From positions 1 to 27,835 of the IMG/VR virus record IMGVR_UViG_3300012017_001101: a stretch of 27,835 nt of DNA, one strand, 5' to 3'. This DNA is from a virus. Position numbers and translations under genes: made by a program. This document shows, piece by piece, positions 5,489 to 27,835 of the stretch. Under the pieces are notes generated by a model. The model ran no database searches. It saw only the letters and a program-made list of their open reading frames with translations, and had not been told where the DNA came from. Within the stretch, counting starts at the first letter, position 1; every line of letters begins with the position of its first letter.

Positions 5489-5947
5489 TTAAAGATCAAT
5501 AATTTTATAAACTTTTGTATTTAATTGTTTAAAAGATCCATCTTGAGTAAGTAAAATACAATTTTGATAATGTTTCCAATCTACTCTAAAGTTAGTATCA
5601 ACTACTCCATCATTTAATTTTTTAATTAAATCATTTAAAGCATTGATTGTATATAAAGTATTGGTTTCTTTTTTTCTATGCACTAAAATAGTGTTCATAG
5701 GAATGTTGCTAACATTTCCTTGATCTACATTATATGTAATAACATATTCATTTGTACTTTTAACAAAAAGAACAAACATTTTATTATACATTATCGTATA
5801 TGTGTTTGATATGCTAGAAACCATTTCTTCTAGTATATCTTCTGTAACGAACGTACAAAATAACTTGTTGTTCAAATCTGTGTTATTTAATTGGGTTTCC
5901 TCCCAATAAATATTATGATGATTATTCAAAATCGTAGCTTGTTCCAT
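5489..5947 (-). CDS. Hypothetical protein, 152 aa, downstream of DNA polymerase
   Basis: An unrecognised protein with ATG at 5945-5947, overlapping the 3' end of the polymerase gene by 26 bases, so the two are probably translationally coupled. The sequence looks mixed alpha/beta, with hydrophobic strands (FVLFVKS, YVITYNV, TILVHRK), a helical stretch TINALNDLIKKLN and a late strand CILLT. It has two cysteines and no signal peptide or membrane helix. Its place between the polymerase and the ssDNA-binding gene suggests a replication-associated role, but that is inference from position only. Confidence 0.7.
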   Translation of the reverse strand: MEQATILNNHHNIYWEETQLNNTDLNNKLFCTFVTEDILEEMVSSISNTYTIMYNKMFVLFVKSTNEYVITYNVDQGNVSNIPMNTILVHRKKETNTLYTINALNDLIKKLNDGVVDTNFRVDWKHYQNCILLTQDGSFKQLNTKVYKIIDL

Positions 5948-7202
5948 GTTTAATCTTTATTTGTAATTTTTTACTTTTAAAAATATCTTCTATGTCCTTT
6001 AATAAATTTTCACTTTCGTCATAATCTAGTAAAAAACTGTCATAAGTATATAATACTAATTTAGTGTTTTTACCTTTTAGTAATTTATTTAACGCCGTTA
6101 ATATACAAACATTCATTGATGTTTCCAAATTTTGTAATATATAATTAAACAACTTTTGTGGATTCATGTTTTCTAACTCGCTTTTTTTAAAACCATAGCC
6201 TGAAATTGGTACTATAATTTCTCCTATATTGTTAAATTCATTCCAGTTGTTATCAATAAATTTCTTTATTTTTTGGAAAAATTCTAGGTGTTCATATTCT
6301 TTAAATACGCCTCCATATAGTTGTTTGAATGTAAGTTCTTTAGCTTCTTTATAACTTGTACCATACATATCTGCAAATATTTGATGAACGTCTTGTCCCT
6401 CAAAATCAAAAGAAACTAAACGAGCAGCAAGGTTAGGATGATAAGCACTAATATCGTACTCAATAAATTTACCGGTTGGTATAAAACTTTTTCTAGCTCC
6501 ACTTTCTTTATTTAATGCCGCAAAATTAAGACCATTAAAAGTGTTACTTGGTCTACGTGTAGTTGTAAATAAGTTATAGTTGGTATATATTTTGTTATCC
6601 CTAATGGAGTACAAAGGGTTAATTTGGGGAAAATGTTGATTAAAAACTGTTTCATTTATGTTTATTCCGTTTTTTTCGATTCCAAAAAATGCAATCGTTG
6701 ATTTATTGTTATAAAAGTCAAAATGTTGGGGTACATCTTGTGTAAAATGTTGTTTTGTTTTATTATAAATATTTTCACAATACTCATAGTGTTTAACTAC
6801 CGGAATAATTTTATTTATTTTTAGATTTTCCGGATACTTGTTATAAAAATATGTGTGTGCTTGGGTTTGTTCTTGTATATACGGAGGAGTGAGTATGTTT
6901 ATATCGCGCAAGCTCTTAATTTGAAAGTAGTATAATGCATTTTTCTTATCTCGCACCCATAGACACTCAACTGACGTTAATAACTCATTTACTACTAGAT
7001 TGTTGATGCTTAAGGTTTCACTATGATCAAGACATATCATAAATCCTTTAGAGGCGGTAACTGGTCTAAAATATACTAAAGAAATATTATTTAAAGCAGG
7101 GTGTACTTTATCGTGGTGGGGGATTATCTCTATAAAAGCTTCTTTAAAGTTGCTTTGTTGAAGATAATTTATTTGTTCTTGTGTCTCTATTAACCAAAAC
7201 AT
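5922..7202 (-). CDS. Compact family A DNA polymerase with degenerate N-terminal domain
   Basis: A 426-residue DNA polymerase of the PolA family. Visible Pol I-type motifs are TTTRRPSN (213-220, matching the TTGRLSS region), ARKSFIP (236-242), motif A EYDISAYHPNL with catalytic D250, GQDVHQIFADMYG (269-281), a motif B / O-helix core K288-x3-F292-x3-Y296-GG, a Q..E......A helix near 357-370, and motif C YTYDSF with D388. The first ~170 residues occupy the place of the 3'-5' exonuclease and the thumb is very short. The expected DxE catalytic pair is not visible: the corresponding strand reads AFIEIIP, and the possible second motif KNALYYFQI lacks Asp. Proofreading is therefore probably absent or supplied by another protein. 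ATG at 7200-7202. T4 itself uses a family B polymerase. Confidence 0.85.
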   Translation of the reverse strand: MFWLIETQEQINYLQQSNFKEAFIEIIPHHDKVHPALNNISLVYFRPVTASKGFMICLDHSETLSINNLVVNELLTSVECLWVRDKKNALYYFQIKSLRDINILTPPYIQEQTQAHTYFYNKYPENLKINKIIPVVKHYEYCENIYNKTKQHFTQDVPQHFDFYNNKSTIAFFGIEKNGININETVFNQHFPQINPLYSIRDNKIYTNYNLFTTTRRPSNTFNGLNFAALNKESGARKSFIPTGKFIEYDISAYHPNLAARLVSFDFEGQDVHQIFADMYGTSYKEAKELTFKQLYGGVFKEYEHLEFFQKIKKFIDNNWNEFNNIGEIIVPISGYGFKKSELENMNPQKLFNYILQNLETSMNVCILTALNKLLKGKNTKLVLYTYDSFLLDYDESENLLKDIEDIFKSKKLQIKIKHGTSYDFE

Positions 7203-20713: not shown

Positions 20714-21916
20714 TTAATAAATATTAAGAACTTTATTAAGAGATGTAATTACTCGAGAAGGATTAATTGTTTTTGTACATTCAAATTGTTTATATGTATT
20801 TTTATGTTCTGGACACCATTCCCAATCACCTGGGTTTAGCCAGTGTTTATTAAAACATCCTGTGCATACATTAGTATCATAATTAAAAACTCGTTCACAA
20901 TCTGTAAATTCACTGTAAGGTAAACTAAATCCTGATATTAGTACTGTAGGGGTTCCTATTGACCACGATAACCAAGAAAGACCACTTCCAACACCTATAA
21001 AAGCATCAGCATATTTTAAATCTAACATTCTATCTTCAATAGGGTAATTTCCGGTTTTATCAATTACATTTTTTAATGTACCTCCTAACTTAGAATCATG
21101 CCATTTATCTCCTAGTTTTTCATGAGTAATCATTACTACTTTATAATCTTGTTCATTTAAATAGTCAATTATTGATTGCCATCCTCCTTTATAATTCCAA
21201 TATTTAGCATGTGCCGAAGCGTGAGGAGCTATAATAACATATTTATCTTCAATTTGTCTAGATTTATTAGGTATTGTTACTTTTGGTTTTATTTCTCTAT
21301 ATTTTAATCCTAAAATAGAGGTTGATGTTTCTCCTAATGGATGTTGTTTAAAATCAATTGGGATTTTAGAATTTGTTACTGTTTTATCTTCATTATAAAA
21401 CCACCCAACAGTATACATAGCATACAAATTATTTACTTCAGTTCCGGGATTAACAAATTCTAAGTTTGGATATTCTTTTTCAAACCATTCATTATGAAAT
21501 GTAGAACAAATCACCTGGCATTGGTGTGTATTTCTAAATTCCTCTATAGCAGGAAACCAAGCTAATGTATCACCAATTGCGGATGATTCAAAATGGATAT
21601 AAACTCTTTTATCTTTAGCATTATAATTATGTTCAAATACTAATTCATTATTTTCTTTATCATAAACCTCAATTCTCCAATTAATAAAATATTCAATACT
21701 AGGTTTAGTCCACATATTGTTGCTAATTTCAGTTTCATATAAACTTTCATTATTTACATTATTAATAAATTTAATTAAATATTTTTTTGGATCCGAACCT
21801 ATTATTTCTAAAAATGCTCCTTTTACAAAATTAAATACAAATTTATTTAAATTTTTTTTATAAGGTAAATTAAGTTGTGTAATATTATTGTATTCTTTGA
21901 TTAAAACTTCTTTCAT
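20714..21916 (-). CDS. O-heptosyltransferase-like glycosyltransferase (BAHT/GT9 type), 400 aa
   Basis: Resembles bacterial autotransporter heptosyltransferases (TibC/AAH), GT-B enzymes that transfer heptose to Ser of protein acceptors. The N-terminal ~110 residues are a separate beta-rich domain. The Rossmann part follows with HFESSAIGDTLAWFPAIEEF, the GT9-like opening. Later come VIIAPHASAHAKYWNYKGGWQ, YADAFIGVGSGLSWLSWSIGTPTVLISG and a C-terminal cysteine set C351-x2-C354, C368 (in GDWEWCP) and C380 (in QFEC), like the four-Cys iron site of TibC. It overlaps the preceding GT4 gene by 32 bases. The nucleotide sugar and acceptor are unknown. The nearby Ser/Thr-rich fibre is a candidate acceptor. 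ATG at 21914-21916. Confidence 0.8.
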   Translation of the reverse strand: MKEVLIKEYNNITQLNLPYKKNLNKFVFNFVKGAFLEIIGSDPKKYLIKFINNVNNESLYETEISNNMWTKPSIEYFINWRIEVYDKENNELVFEHNYNAKDKRVYIHFESSAIGDTLAWFPAIEEFRNTHQCQVICSTFHNEWFEKEYPNLEFVNPGTEVNNLYAMYTVGWFYNEDKTVTNSKIPIDFKQHPLGETSTSILGLKYREIKPKVTIPNKSRQIEDKYVIIAPHASAHAKYWNYKGGWQSIIDYLNEQDYKVVMITHEKLGDKWHDSKLGGTLKNVIDKTGNYPIEDRMLDLKYADAFIGVGSGLSWLSWSIGTPTVLISGFSLPYSEFTDCERVFNYDTNVCTGCFNKHWLNPGDWEWCPEHKNTYKQFECTKTINPSRVITSLNKVLNIY

Positions 21917-22847
21917 ATATTTTAATTAATTCTTTTGAACGATTAAACCACGATAATTCTTTAGCTGTTTCTGAGCATTTTGTTCTATATAAAGCCCAAT
22001 TATCTATAATATCTTTTAAACCTCTATCCATTTCAAATATATCACGAGGAGCTCTCCAAGCACCATGAAAATCAGTTTCTAATTCCCAATTAGCAATAAT
22101 AGGTAAACCTGCTGATGCTGCTTCAACCATTGTTAAATTAGGATGACCAGCTTCCAACATTGTAGGGTGAATAAAAATATCATGTTTATGATACAATTCT
22201 AATAATTTACTATTAGGAGTATCAAATACCAAGTTTAGTTTAGGATAATTTAACATCCATAAATGAGCATTAAAAAAGCTTTTATTGTCTGAAGGACCTG
22301 CTATTGTTATTTCAAGATTATTTAGCATTGCTAAACCTAAACCATATGTAAATCCTTTTCTATCAAATGTAGAATTACCTGCTAGACCATTATTAGCTAT
22401 CATTAATAGTTTTGGTTCTAATGGTGTTTCTTTTTCAATAGGATAAAAATCATCTATATTCACACCATGTGAAAAATATTCACATTTTGGATGATCAAAA
22501 TAATCAACTAAAAATCTAGCAGGCATTAAAGATATAAGTGAACCTTCAATTGCTTGTAAATTTTCTTTATATACGTGAGAATCTTTACCATAATGATATG
22601 CGTGATGATCATGTAATTGATAAATATAAGGAATATTTCTTTCTGATAATTCTAGGGCTAAATTAGCAACATGACAATGAACTATATCATATTCATTTGG
22701 TTCAATAACTCCAGACATTTTAATATCAACTTCATGTCCTAATTTATCTAAATTATTAGTAAATTCCCATACTATTTTTTCAATAGCACCCCAAGCTGGA
22801 GGGGGAATAGGAATACCGCATCCTGGATCTATTTGGCATATTTTCAT
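21885..22847 (-). CDS. GT4-type glycosyltransferase, 320 aa
   Basis: A GT-B fold glycosyltransferase of the GT4 group. The N-terminal domain has KICQIDPGCGIPIPPPAWGAIEKIVWEF, the glycine-rich acceptor-side loop, and DIVHCHVANLAL. The C-terminal donor domain shows LMIANNGLAGNSTFDRKGF, IFIHPTMLEAGHPNLTMVEAA with the paired Glu residues E232 and E242 that bind the nucleotide sugar, and GLPIIAN. Length is somewhat short for GT4 (typically 350-400). The ATG overlaps the stop of the large glycosyltransferase gene by 4 bases (ATGA), and its own 3' end overlaps the next gene by 32 bases, so the three are one translationally coupled operon. Confidence 0.85.
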   Translation of the reverse strand: MKICQIDPGCGIPIPPPAWGAIEKIVWEFTNNLDKLGHEVDIKMSGVIEPNEYDIVHCHVANLALELSERNIPYIYQLHDHHAYHYGKDSHVYKENLQAIEGSLISLMPARFLVDYFDHPKCEYFSHGVNIDDFYPIEKETPLEPKLLMIANNGLAGNSTFDRKGFTYGLGLAMLNNLEITIAGPSDNKSFFNAHLWMLNYPKLNLVFDTPNSKLLELYHKHDIFIHPTMLEAGHPNLTMVEAASAGLPIIANWELETDFHGAWRAPRDIFEMDRGLKDIIDNWALYRTKCSETAKELSWFNRSKELIKIYERSFNQRIQ

Positions 22848-25504
22848 TCGGTAGCGTATATTTCGGGACTATTTTCATCAATTCCTTTAAATTCTTGTTC
22901 AATAATACTAAATCCCGGGAGGTGTTTTGTGTATATTTTTTCAGCAGTACCTACTTTTAATTGAGCAATATTACATACCCACATATCAAAAGCATCCCAC
23001 AAAGTTGTTTTTATTTTATCTTGAATATAATTTATTTTTTCATTATTAATTAAATAAGATTGAGCAGGAATAAAAGGAGTTACATTTGTATAAATGTCTT
23101 CAATTTTAGGTCCATTTAAATTACGATTATTAAATGGATTACCAAATCCAATTATATCTTGGTTTTGTTCTTTAGATATTTTACTAAAGCGAATTAAAGA
23201 ATCATATAATTCTTGATAATCAGAATCTATAATTACATCTCCTTCAAATATTAATATATAATCATAATCTTTATTGTCATCTGCTAAAATAGCATTTGTG
23301 TGAGCTAAATAACAACCATAATGACCCGGTGCTAATTTATAATATCCCGGCTTATCTTGAACATCTTGAGGTCGAGCACAAGTATCACTAGGAGGTAATT
23401 CTGTCCATATTTTATTTACTCTTTGTTCGTATTTGATACCTGTTTTATTGCAAAAATCTTTAATATTTTCTACTGATCTAATTTCCTTTAGATTAGAATC
23501 AGGTTCAGTAACTAAATGCATTAGTTTAATCTTTGTATTTAAGTTTTTTATTTCTAAATTACCATTAAATTCAAGATTTTTTACTTGAATAGTAGATATT
23601 TTAAGAATTTTATGATAATTACTAATTTTAAATTCTACTTCCATTCCTTCTTCGTATGGGAGAACTTTATAATAATCTATTTTACTTTCTACATTTAATT
23701 CATCAAAAAATACTTCATTTTTATCTTTATCATGTACTGTAATTTGGATAAGTCTTGATTCTTTACTATTAGAAATTCTAATATAAGGAGCAAACGTATT
23801 TGGAATATTAGTAGGTAAAACTGTAAAATATTCTACTTGAGAAAAATCGTGGTGGTTAAATGTTTCTAAATTTTTTTGATTAAATACTTCAATATCTTCA
23901 AAATAAATTTGGTCTGCACTTCTTTTAAATATATGATACCACATATTTTCAAGTCCATTACTTTCACTTCCTAATTGAAAACGTAAATATTCATATTCCT
24001 CAGCATTAAATACTTGGCGAACGTGATCTAAAAAGAAATCTGAGGTGGAAGCATAAAAATAAGTATGCAAAGCATCACCTTCAGAAGCTTTATACTTACC
24101 AAAGTATGCTTTTTTAGTATCTAATATTTTAGATATTTTATCAATATGATGTTGGGATTGTATTGTGTAATCAAAATTAATAAAGAATAATTTTTTATAT
24201 CCTAAACTTTTTGCTAAGGCTGCGCCGTTTACATAATTAGAATGAACACTAGGTCCATGATAAACATCATTATCGTTTCCTCTTAAATTAATATGAACTT
24301 TATGATCTGGGTGGTCTGACCAGTAATTACAATAGTAAGTATGTTTTGTTAAAATATTGTTATTATCAACAACAACATAATCTGCTTTAGATTCGATTTC
24401 AAAAGGAACAGGAATATGAGATGTTACTAATACTTTTGTTCCTCGAGCATGTATTGAATCTATTGTTTTTAATGTAGTTTCAATTATAGCATCACTTATA
24501 GGGAATGTAGATAAAATAAATATTTCTTCATTTAGATTTGATTCTTTAATACCTAATTTTTCAGCAATTCTATCACAATTAGTTTTAAAATCATCAAATT
24601 TTAAATAATCAATAGTTTCAAATTTATCAAAATAATCTAAATAAACTGGGAGGTTATAAATTAAAGTTGGGATTTGATATGAAATTGCCTCACGAATAAC
24701 TAAAGGCATTGTTTCTTTATCAGTATCATGTCCCCGAGAAGTAAATAAAAATAAATCCATAGATTGATAAAAAGCATCTACATCTGAGCGTTCGTTCCAC
24801 CAAGTTAAATTTAAGGGTTGATCTTTAGTTAATGGTTCCCAATACCATTTAAAATTATCTGCTCTATTTCCTAAACTGTGAAATTCAATGTCTGGGAATT
24901 GTTTAGCATATTCAAAAAATTCAGCTTGGTTTTTACGAGAAGTATATAAACCAACATGCAAAACATGTTTTTTATTAGGGTCTAATCCTAATTTAGTTAA
25001 TGATTCTTCTCGATTTGGACGTTCAGTATATTCAATTGGGTATTCTACTAATATTTTGGGGATATCTAAATCTTTATATTGTTGAATTTGCCAATCCGAT
25101 ACAAACATAAATTTATCAGGGAAAAATAATTTATTATTTGTATCAAATGAGGAATCATGTGATGTTTCTACAATAGAATAATTTCTATTTTGGGTGTATA
25201 TTTGATGGGTGATTTCATCATCCATGAAGAATTCGGGTATTTCCTCTAAATGTATTATATCCGGTTGAATGCGGTGTATAATGTTAATTAATTCATGTTT
25301 ATTATCACCTAATGTAAAAAATTTATCAGAATCAATTAAATTAACTATTTTATTTCTAGTAACTACTAAAATCCCTCCAGTACAATCAACCCATTCTACA
25401 AGATAAATATCATATATATCTTTAAGTAATTCTATTTTTTTAGTTAAATATTGAGGAAGTCCACCTGTTGATAAATGAGGAGCAATAAATAACAATTTTG
25501 TCAT
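22844..25504 (-). CDS. Three-domain glycosyltransferase (GT4-like, middle domain, GT25-like), 886 aa
   Basis: Three parts are visible. Residues 1-310 look like a GT-B enzyme: LLFIAPHLSTGGLPQYLTKKI at the start, HVGLYTSRKNQAEFFEYAKQFP in the donor half, then LFLFTSRGHDTDKETMPLVIREAISYQIPTLI. Residues ~325-545 form a second unit (LSTFPISDAIIETTLKTIDSI, KVLVTSH, DYVVVDNNN, LFFINFDYTI) resembling a nucleotide-sugar-type GT-A domain. Residues ~661-886 resemble GT25 (LPS galactosyltransferase) proteins: GHYGCYLAH (727-735) and YILIFEGDV with FEGD (753-756) in place of the usual EDD. A beta-rich linker lies between the second and third. Such fusions can build a sugar chain stepwise. ATG at 25502-25504; promoter-like element just upstream. 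Confidence 0.8.
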   Translation of the reverse strand: MTKLLFIAPHLSTGGLPQYLTKKIELLKDIYDIYLVEWVDCTGGILVVTRNKIVNLIDSDKFFTLGDNKHELINIIHRIQPDIIHLEEIPEFFMDDEITHQIYTQNRNYSIVETSHDSSFDTNNKLFFPDKFMFVSDWQIQQYKDLDIPKILVEYPIEYTERPNREESLTKLGLDPNKKHVLHVGLYTSRKNQAEFFEYAKQFPDIEFHSLGNRADNFKWYWEPLTKDQPLNLTWWNERSDVDAFYQSMDLFLFTSRGHDTDKETMPLVIREAISYQIPTLIYNLPVYLDYFDKFETIDYLKFDDFKTNCDRIAEKLGIKESNLNEEIFILSTFPISDAIIETTLKTIDSIHARGTKVLVTSHIPVPFEIESKADYVVVDNNNILTKHTYYCNYWSDHPDHKVHINLRGNDNDVYHGPSVHSNYVNGAALAKSLGYKKLFFINFDYTIQSQHHIDKISKILDTKKAYFGKYKASEGDALHTYFYASTSDFFLDHVRQVFNAEEYEYLRFQLGSESNGLENMWYHIFKRSADQIYFEDIEVFNQKNLETFNHHDFSQVEYFTVLPTNIPNTFAPYIRISNSKESRLIQITVHDKDKNEVFFDELNVESKIDYYKVLPYEEGMEVEFKISNYHKILKISTIQVKNLEFNGNLEIKNLNTKIKLMHLVTEPDSNLKEIRSVENIKDFCNKTGIKYEQRVNKIWTELPPSDTCARPQDVQDKPGYYKLAPGHYGCYLAHTNAILADDNKDYDYILIFEGDVIIDSDYQELYDSLIRFSKISKEQNQDIIGFGNPFNNRNLNGPKIEDIYTNVTPFIPAQSYLINNEKINYIQDKIKTTLWDAFDMWVCNIAQLKVGTAEKIYTKHLPGFSIIEQEFKGIDENSPEIYATE

Positions 25505-25517
25505 AACATTTTATTTT

Positions 25518-25530
25518 TTATAAATATAAA
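25518..25530 (-). promoter_or_regulatory. Putative late promoter element (glycosyltransferase operon)
   Basis: Minus-strand TTTATATTTATAA lies 13 bases before the ATG of the 886-aa gene, within the 73-base gap after the collagen-like gene. It shares ATATTTATAA with the elements before the tail genes, which would place the glycosyltransferases in the same late expression class as virion proteins. No terminator hairpin was seen in this gap. Confidence 0.45.
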
Positions 25531-25577
25531 TAAAATTATTTAAAGTACCAAAATATTATGTGTTTTTTCTAAAATAA

Positions 25578-27835
25578 TTAACCTGGTCTTTCTACATTAA
25601 GGGTCCAACTTACTTTTACAATAGTATTAACACTGAAACCAATTACTTTCCAACCTATAACAAATTGAATATTACAGCCAGCTAATGACTCAAATTCTCC
25701 TAAAGTATAACTATCACTAAAACAACCGTATTGATAAGATTTACCACTACAGGTAACGCCCGCGTTATATGTTAAACTACCAGTCATAAGATTATTAATA
25801 GTATATTGAGCGGAGGTGCTAATATCTTCACCACAATCATAATAACCAACAACCCACTCTAAACCATCATTTGCTTTTTGTGGTATATTTGAGGTGCCGC
25901 ATATTTTTATTATGTCTCCATATTGTAAATTGAAGGGGTTTGTTATTCCACAATTATTATTTTGTACACAAAGGTTTGAATTGTATGGTTCTTCTAGACT
26001 AACTCTTGCTGCTACATCCCAATCACAACCCGCCCAACCACAATTATCATCCCCAATATAATAGTCCGCAGAACTTGTTGTTGCGCCTTGTGTAAAAGCG
26101 TTGGAATGAGATGCAATAACCCAATATTCATCACCACTTGTGCCTGATGTTCCACTGTTACCTGCATTTCCACTTGATCCTGCAGTGCCGCTTGTTCCTG
26201 ATGTTCCTCCATTACCTGAGGTTCCTGATAGTCCTGAATTAGCTGGACTTCCTGAGATACCACTTGATCCCGTTGAACCTGAGGAACCTGATGAGCCTGA
26301 TGTTCCACTTGATCCTGCTATACCTGATGTACCTGAAGAGCCATTTGAACCTGAAGTGCCTGATAATTGGCTTAATCCTGAGTTTCCTGCATTTCCACTT
26401 GACCCCATTGAACCTGAAGAACCTGAAGAACCGCTTAAAGCACTTGCTCCCAATAAACCAGTAATACCTGAGGAACCTGAAGACCCATTTGAACCTGATG
26501 TTTGACTTAATCCTGATGAACCTGTATTTCCACTTGTACCGTTTGAACCTGAAGAACCACTTGTTCCTGATGATGAGCCTGAGATACCTGATGAACCTGA
26601 TCCTCCTGAGGAACCTTTAGAACCACTTGAACCTGAGGTACCGCTAGTAAAACTTGGTCCTGAAGTACCTGCGTCACCTGTTGAACCACTAGAACCTGTT
26701 GAGCCTGAAGTACCTGAACTACGGCTTAATCCTGAGGTGCCATCATTTCCTGATGAACCTATTGTTCCTGATGAACCTGAGGAACCTGAACTACGGCTTG
26801 ATCCTGAGGAGCCAAGGTTACCTGTTGTACCATTTGAACCTGAGGTGCCTGAAGTACCTGAGGTTTGGCTTGATCCTGAGGAGCCTATGTTACCACTTGT
26901 ACCATTTGAACCTGAGGTACCTGAAGATCCTGAGGTTTGGCTTGATCCTGATGTGCCTGCGTTTCCTGAGGAGCCTATATTTCCACTTGTACCATTTGAA
27001 CCTGAGGTACCTGAAGTACCTGATGTTCGACTTAATCCTGAGGTACCATCATTTCCTGATGAACCTACTGAACCTGAGGAACCACTTGAACCTGAGGTTC
27101 GGCTTGAACCTGAAGAACCATTGTTTCCTGAGGTACCATTTGAACCTGAGGTACCGGAAGTGCCTGAGGTTTGGCTTGATCCTGAGGAGCCTATGTTACC
27201 GGTTGTGCCGTTTGAACCTGAAGTTCCACTTGATCCTGATGTTTGGCTTGATCCTGATGTACCTGCGTTTCCTGAAGATCCAAGGTTACCACTTGTGCCG
27301 TTTGAACCTGAGGTACCTGAAGTACCTGATGTTTGGCTTAATCCTGAGGAACCTACATTTCCTGATGAACCTACTGTTCCTGAAGAACCTGAGGAACCTG
27401 ATGTTCGACTTAATCCTGAAGTGCCATCGTTTCCTGAGGAGCCTACTGTTCCTGATGAACCGGAAGTGCCTGAGGTTTGGCTTGATCCTGAAGAGCCAAG
27501 GTTACCGGTTGTACCGTTTGAACCTGAAGTTCCACTTGATCCTGATGTTTGGCTTGATCCTGAGGAGCCTATGTTACCGGTTGTACCATTTGAACCTGAA
27601 GATCCTGAAGTGCCTGAGGTTTGGCTTAATCCTGATGTTCCAGCATTACCTGTTGTACCATTTGAACCTGAGGAGCCACTTGTTCCTGAGGTTTGGCTTA
27701 AACCTGAAGAGCCAAGGTTACCTGTAGAACCATTTGAGCCACTTGAACCTGAAGAACCTGATGTTCGACTTAAACCTGAAGTACCATCATTTCCTGATGA
27801 ACCTACTGAACCTGAGGAACCACTTGAACCTGAGG
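25578..27835 (-). CDS. Collagen-like Gly-X-Y fibre protein rich in Ser/Thr (partial, 5' end off the right edge)
   Basis: The frame is open without interruption from 27835 to the TAA at 25578-25580; about 751 residues are visible. About 567 residues are Gly-X-Y triplets in which X and Y are mostly Ser, Thr and Asn (GSSG, GTSG, GSNG, GNLG) with very little Pro. At regular points the Gly is replaced by Gln or Arg (LSQTSG, LSRTSG), mostly every 24 residues, and once by Phe. The C-terminal 184 residues (from DEYWVIAS) are a different domain with nine Cys and much aromatic and beta-type sequence, possibly a trimerising head. Probably a trimeric virion fibre. The TTG at 26451-26453 is merely an internal codon (Leu), not the start. 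Three glycosyltransferase genes follow. Confidence 0.9.
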   Translation of the reverse strand, partial: SGSSGSSGSVGSSGNDGTSGLSRTSGSSGSSGSNGSTGNLGSSGLSQTSGTSGSSGSNGTTGNAGTSGLSQTSGTSGSSGSNGTTGNIGSSGSSQTSGSSGTSGSNGTTGNLGSSGSSQTSGTSGSSGTVGSSGNDGTSGLSRTSGSSGSSGTVGSSGNVGSSGLSQTSGTSGTSGSNGTSGNLGSSGNAGTSGSSQTSGSSGTSGSNGTTGNIGSSGSSQTSGTSGTSGSNGTSGNNGSSGSSRTSGSSGSSGSVGSSGNDGTSGLSRTSGTSGTSGSNGTSGNIGSSGNAGTSGSSQTSGSSGTSGSNGTSGNIGSSGSSQTSGTSGTSGSNGTTGNLGSSGSSRSSGSSGSSGTIGSSGNDGTSGLSRSSGTSGSTGSSGSTGDAGTSGPSFTSGTSGSSGSKGSSGGSGSSGISGSSSGTSGSSGSNGTSGNTGSSGLSQTSGSNGSSGSSGITGLLGASALSGSSGSSGSMGSSGNAGNSGLSQLSGTSGSNGSSGTSGIAGSSGTSGSSGSSGSTGSSGISGSPANSGLSGTSGNGGTSGTSGTAGSSGNAGNSGTSGTSGDEYWVIASHSNAFTQGATTSSADYYIGDDNCGWAGCDWDVAARVSLEEPYNSNLCVQNNNCGITNPFNLQYGDIIKICGTSNIPQKANDGLEWVVGYYDCGEDISTSAQYTINNLMTGSLTYNAGVTCSGKSYQYGCFSDSYTLGEFESLAGCNIQFVIGWKVIGFSVNTIVKVSWTLNVERPG
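26133..27835 (-). repeat. 9-bp/72-bp periodic coding repeat array
   Basis: A degenerate 9-base (Gly-X-Y) repeat with a higher-order unit of 72 bases. Non-Gly triplets replacing Gly occur on the plus strand at 26367, 26502, 26649, 26721, 26793, 26865, 26937, 27027, 27099, 27171, 27243, 27333, 27405, 27477, 27549, 27621, 27693 and 27765. Spacings are 72 except for 135 and 147 at the C-terminal end and two of 90. All are multiples of three. Confidence 0.9.

Follow-up and report, generated by a model that had tools for sequence, protein, structure and literature searches.

A TibC-like glycosyltransferase cluster and its probable collagen-like fibre substrate in T4-like phages

The fibre gene and its surroundings

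The 27,835-base window analyzed here is the whole of IMG/VR virus record IMGVR_UViG_3300012017_001101, a phage genome fragment. It belongs to an aquatic T4-like myophage; among catalogued phages, its tail sheath is most similar to that of Flavobacterium phage immuto (51%), followed by that of Microcystis phage Mel-JY01 (48%). We studied a cluster on the - strand in which the gene of a Ser/Thr-rich, collagen-like tail fibre precedes three glycosyltransferase genes, the last of them encoding a relative of the protein O-heptosyltransferase TibC (Table 1). The coordinates agree with a preliminary description of this DNA, which had placed three overlapping transferase genes behind the fibre gene on the same strand: the first starts after a gap of 73 bases, and the subsequent overlaps measure 4 and then 32 bases.

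Table 1 Features of the fibre and glycosyltransferase cluster (positions in the window).
Feature	Position	Strand	Basis
Ser/Thr-rich, essentially Pro-free Gly-X-Y (collagen-like) tail fibre, 751 aa (amino acids) seen	25578..27835	-	Open frame to contig end; Pfam Collagen; PHROG tail fibre families; composition
Fibre C-terminal head, 184 aa, Cys-rich	25581..26132	-	Outside known families; relative in only one other contig
73-base gap, possible promoter	25505..25577	-	TTGG-N-TATATTTAT on coding strand, kept in relatives; function putative
886-aa multidomain glycosyltransferase, proposed glycan extension	22844..25504	-	Pfam; predicted model; Foldseek
320-aa GT4-type glycosyltransferase, proposed glycan extension	21885..22847	-	Pfam Glycos_transf_1, E 4.4e-6; kept in relatives
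400-aa TibC-like protein O-heptosyltransferase, proposed to add the first sugar to fibre Ser/Thr	20714..21916	-	Sequence, profile, predicted fold, conserved residues

The fibre had been described as proline-poor with hundreds of Ser and Thr residues in Gly-X-Y context, and its composition matches that description: the 567 residues of repeat region that are present contain 215 Ser, 73 Thr, 2 Pro, and 1 Lys. The frame matches Pfam Collagen (E 1.5e-58) and runs off the contig end, so the N-terminus of the protein is not seen. Gly occupies every third position over long stretches; the Pro-rich X and Y positions typical of collagen were not found in the window fibre, and we therefore call it collagen-like by its repeat pattern only. 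About every 8th triplet, with a spacing of mostly exactly 8, the Gly is replaced by Q/R (QTS, RTS, ATS, ALS), and by A, N, or K in relatives. This periodic replacement runs throughout the window's clade and was absent from the fibres checked from other TibC-like clades. The head matches a sequence (54%) in only one other contig, whereas the transferases are conserved, so that the fibre tip is hypervariable in sequence; no family could be fitted to it.

The gap between the fibre and transferase genes had been credited with a late-type promoter element, which did not hold up. The T4-type motif TATAAATA sits there on the + strand and so faces in the direction opposite to the genes; such motifs are not enriched in the window (13 found versus 9.0 ± 2.9 expected), so we rejected a T4-type late promoter ahead of the transferase genes. 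The coding strand carries instead TTGG-N(about 20)-TATATTTAT at this site, an arrangement kept in several relatives, which we take to resemble the Bacteroidota promoter (TTG / TAnnTTTG) and which may hint at a Bacteroidota host.

The three glycosyltransferases

The 400-aa protein belongs to Pfam GT9, and its best match by sequence in the Protein Data Bank (PDB) is TibC (4rb4; E 5.6e-59 over residues 45-396). Against TIGR04414, a curated equivalog model with a cut-off of 200 bits, it scores 315.6 bits over the full length (residues 19-396 to model positions 5-374 of 374). These values strongly confirm the likeness to protein O-heptosyltransferases that had been noticed for one of the transferases. 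Residues D116 and K238 align with the catalytic D110 and K230 of TibC, and C351, C354, C368, and C380 correspond to its iron-finger residues C339, C342, C358, and C370, positions that are named in the structural work on TibC (PMC4358343); all six are invariant in an alignment of 40 diverse phage members. The predicted structure (pLDDT, the predicted local distance difference test, 93.9) contains the N-terminal β-barrel and the GT-B catalytic fold, and TibC is again the best PDB match (template modelling score, TM, 0.83-0.87; E 1e-38), the next GT9 structure reaching a TM of about 0.5. TibC has a β-hairpin thumb and forms a dodecamer ring; the corresponding thumb region of the predicted monomer is about as long, and the model shows a helix there (271-277), without a hairpin that could be clearly recognized. 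By sequence and predicted fold, the protein is a full member of the TibC family with its active-site and metal-site residues intact.

In three other loci (L258, L264, and L270) a second, shorter TibC-like gene lies directly behind the first. The one in L258 (11074-11952) encodes 292 aa and matches TIGR04414 only from position 84, at 186.8 bits; such genes perhaps encode a partner subunit.

The 886-aa protein gives a GT4-type and a weak GT25 match in Pfam. Its predicted model (pLDDT 79, moderate confidence), with domain limits taken by eye from the secondary structure, comprises a GT-B domain (about 1-320), a GT-A domain (325-555), a β-sandwich (558-660), and a GT25-like GT-A domain (660-865). 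The collagen galactosyltransferase COLGALT1 gave the best Foldseek E-value for the last domain (3e-11), but the TM of 0.19/0.29 led us to drop this candidate, and we do not claim the domain as a true collagen galactosyltransferase. Relatives retain the 320-aa gene in its place, flanked by the genes of the 886-aa and TibC-like proteins. Phage glycosyltransferases that modify DNA exist, which would make the phage's own DNA a conceivable target; no such enzyme was found among the best family or fold matches, and the chance that the transferases act on phage DNA appears negligible.

A role at the host surface is the usual assumption for phage glycosyltransferases of host-recognition islands (PMC7029224). 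The cluster would then remodel lipopolysaccharide (LPS) or capsule during infection, for example against superinfection; GT4 and GT25 families are common in LPS synthesis, and HldE-like genes, found behind some of the TibC-like genes (see below), also serve LPS heptose. This is nevertheless unlikely, as the key enzyme is of TibC type and far above the curated cut-off for protein heptosyltransferases but reaches 24-27 bits with the models for LPS heptosyltransferases, and as it is linked to Ser/Thr-rich repeat proteins both in phages and in Methylobacter chromosomes.

Linkage of fibre and enzyme

TibC-like genes form a large phage clade, with 161 close relatives in one scan and at least 600 matching IMG/VR stretches in two profile scans. 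The clade of the window keeps the order fibre, 886-aa, 320-aa, TibC-like, and sheath gene, and the fibre adjoins the transferases in nearly all window-type contigs that extend far enough upstream; in 4 rearranged contigs it is still close, on the other strand. For a broader comparison we defined a strict fibre as one with 12 or more Gly-X-Y triplets whose X and Y positions are at least 50% Ser/Thr and less than 5% Pro, and looked for its open reading frame (ORF) within 10 kb flanks in three samples of GT9 loci of at least 14 kb. Strict fibres accompanied 27/31, 18/41, and 36/59 GT9 loci, compared with one of 25 sheath relatives lacking GT9 (Fisher p 4e-8, uncorrected for kinship), in which the Gly-X-Y fibres mostly contain Pro or are less rich in Ser/Thr. 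The transferases had been expected to prove equally frequent without the fibre if the proposed connection were false; these counts and those that follow speak against such a refutation. Strict fibres were also present at 60 of 158 enzyme loci and at none of 80 random loci, which were shorter on average. When contigs of at least 30 kb were sampled by the fibre instead, the enzyme was found in 17/45 and in 0/41 random contigs (p 3e-6, again uncorrected for kinship).

Shared descent is partly corrected for by two observations: the link is seen in 24 of 35 clusters at 60% identity, and it spans deep branches of the enzyme tree. There, the rows with Ser/Thr fibres all belong to a single branch (SH-aLRT, the Shimodaira-Hasegawa-like approximate likelihood ratio test, 99), separate from most bacterial enzymes including TibC.

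The pairing recurs outside the window's clade. In the isolated phage Mel-JY01, a fused GT4/TibC-like protein is encoded shortly behind a 1016-aa Ser/Thr Gly-X-Y frame, and a 735-kb phage has, side by side, a Ser/Thr Gly-X-Y ORF and the genes of a GT4-TibC fusion and of a protein related to the 886-aa one; phage immuto has neither a TibC-like enzyme nor a Ser/Thr Gly-X-Y fibre. Two Methylobacter chromosomes carry, amid housekeeping genes, the gene of an apparently secreted GTSG-repeat protein (with what resembles a signal peptide) and, 41 bases downstream, that of the enzyme, and an Arenicellales contig pairs the enzyme with a GTSG-repeat lipoprotein-like ORF. An Acetobacteraceae TibC homologue, outside the fibre branch of the tree, adjoins an AIDA-repeat autotransporter, also a Ser/Thr-rich repeat protein.

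The open fibre frame of Mel-JY01 (PP395634.1, 2-3052, +) is overlain by two annotated - strand coding sequences, which are probably misannotated.

Host-recognition islands that gather fibres and glycosyltransferases are known from aquatic myophages (PMC7029224), and fibres without the enzyme are common, so the genes might stand together by this tendency, with no functional link. The scarcity of strict fibres in random loci and GT9-less relatives, the persistence of the link across deep enzyme branches, and the two-gene unit of Methylobacter make such an explanation very improbable.

Alternatively, the glycosylated protein could be another part of the virion, most likely the tail sheath, the fibre being a mere neighbour. 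In T4-like lineages the sheath gene comes directly after the TibC-like gene, and in L225, L240, and L250 the two adjoin with no collagen match in the contig. Against this, the Mel-JY01 enzyme adjoins the fibre and is more than 20 kb from the sheath gene, no sheath gene was seen near the enzyme at the 735-kb phage locus, and the Methylobacter partner is a GTSG-repeat protein with no phage tail. We therefore regard sheath glycosylation as improbable and fibre glycosylation as the likely function of the cluster.

Several observations weigh against fibre glycosylation, the proximity of the enzyme and sheath genes in T4-like lineages being one. Several enzyme-bearing contigs, including LR756504, have no collagen match, and in L263, L265, and L268 the enzyme accompanies Pro-rich, Ser/Thr-poor fibres instead. 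Conversely, the fibre occurs without the enzyme in 28 of the 45 contigs of at least 30 kb, some of them 128-187 kb long, so the sugar is not demonstrably indispensable for all such fibres. GT4 and GT2 genes are no commoner in the fibre-only contigs than in random ones, and we discarded the idea that these glycosyltransferases stand in for the TibC-like genes there. For TibC itself, the demonstrated sites are Ser and not Thr, in a β-helix and not in Gly-X-Y repeats (PMC4358343). Evidence in favour comes from about 18 loci in which the enzyme gene is followed, mostly with an overlap or no gap, by genes of an HldE-like adenylyltransferase and kinase, putative makers of the ADP-heptose donor. In NCBIfam they match the heptose models best, but with scores under the curated cut-offs, which is a further point against. 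Both HldE-like genes occur together with a fibre in L295, and a kinase-like gene with a fibre in L282. GmhA was rejected as a companion gene, since only 3 of the 48 records with the enzyme contained it.

Proposed glycosylation of the fibre

Taken with these points, the sequences and predicted models indicate that the three genes behind the fibre probably glycosylate the phage's own fibre, by TibC-type O-heptosylation followed by the addition of further sugars by the other two enzymes. That the phage decorates its own Ser/Thr Gly-X-Y fibre had been proposed in the preliminary description and is well supported by the TibC-family enzyme, its linkage to the fibre, the Methylobacter pair, and the HldE-like genes. 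The acceptor, the sugar, the sequence of the reactions, and whether the shaft becomes stiffer or more stable are inferences. The further suggestions of that description, that the sugars stabilise a triple helix, shape host contact, or aid immune evasion, are speculative. The reaction would take place in the cytoplasm of the infected cell, where the TibC-like enzyme would move heptose from an ADP-heptose donor to the fibre; the acceptors would be hydroxyl groups of Ser, and perhaps of Thr, within the Gly-(Ser/Thr)-(Ser/Thr) repeat. Further sugars would then come from the 320-aa (GT4) and 886-aa (GT4/GT-A/GT25) enzymes, yielding a heavily O-glycosylated fibre shaft that bears a variable head.

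The phage system shares with the TibC/AAH autotransporter heptosyltransferases (TIGR04414; PDB 4RAP, 4RB4; PMC4358343) the full-length sequence and fold, the catalytic Asp/Lys, the four iron-binding Cys, and a gene position next to a Ser/Thr-rich repetitive adhesive protein. It differs in that the partner is a Gly-X-Y fibre, the phage enzymes form their own clade and often have GT4/GT25, methyltransferase, or HldE-like genes fused to theirs or downstream, and the predicted monomer shows no clear thumb hairpin. No AIDA/TibA-type autotransporter lies beside the window enzyme; since its partner is a Gly-X-Y fibre, we class the enzyme as TibC-like and do not call the system an autotransporter system. 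Mycobacteriophages are reported to carry glycans on their own virion proteins (Freeman et al. 2023, cited in PMC12619734), as we propose here; there the capsid and tail tube subunits are modified at their C-termini, in contrast to a collagen-like fibre and a TibC-type enzyme here. Mimivirus also combines proline-poor collagen-like proteins with a sugar-adding enzyme, L230, a collagen hydroxylase/glucosyltransferase that acts on hydroxylysine (PMC9614988); a GT25-type domain is common to both systems, but the window fibre is almost without Lys, and its predicted first enzyme is of TibC type and would act on Ser/Thr. Bacillus BclA, from the exosporium, is another prokaryotic glycosylated collagen-like filament; it is a spore protein, and the text consulted (PMC8968730) describes no phage fibre or TibC-type enzyme for it.

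In the journal literature open without subscription, preprints aside, we found no earlier account of either phage TibC-like enzymes or the fibre-enzyme pairing. Phage glycosyltransferases are usually explained as countering host restriction or altering the host surface. The genes described here, present in hundreds of environmental phages and in the isolated Mel-JY01, point to a third use, in which the virion's own fibres receive the sugar. If true, this would be relevant to the working of proline-free collagen-like shafts that exceed 2,000 residues, would extend the substrates of the TibC family, and would make fibre glycans a hidden layer in phage-host recognition.

A more far-reaching scenario, which we put forward tentatively and hold to be somewhat doubtful, is that of a large, previously unrecognised viral TibC branch that switched from β-helix autotransporters to Gly-(Ser/Thr)-(Ser/Thr) fibres. 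It would provide aquatic phages with a self-contained O-heptosylation pathway, including donor synthesis in some and exchangeable methyl, carbamoyl, and amino decoration; the glycans would replace proline in very long shafts, and the bacterial GTSG-repeat/TibC pairs would derive from this branch.

Decoration genes do vary among relatives, and include FkbM methyltransferase, carbamoyltransferase, and PIG-L (deacetylation) genes. At one locus (L202, 8786-16668), a TibC-like fusion gene coding for a long protein (1251 aa) precedes two ORFs that resemble by eye the middle domain of the 886-aa protein, a C-methyltransferase gene, and a PseB-like dehydratase gene; by gene content this is a larger sugar pathway in a phage. 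The phage cluster described here also occurs in contigs assigned to Winogradskyella (L558) and Flavobacteriales (L559) metagenome-assembled genomes; as L558 contains genes for sheath, tube, and tape measure proteins too, both are probably phage. Elsewhere in the window, positions 5922-7202 (-) encode a 426-aa protein of no clear family, the C-terminal half of which resembles by eye the core of family A DNA polymerases (SAYHPNLAARLV).

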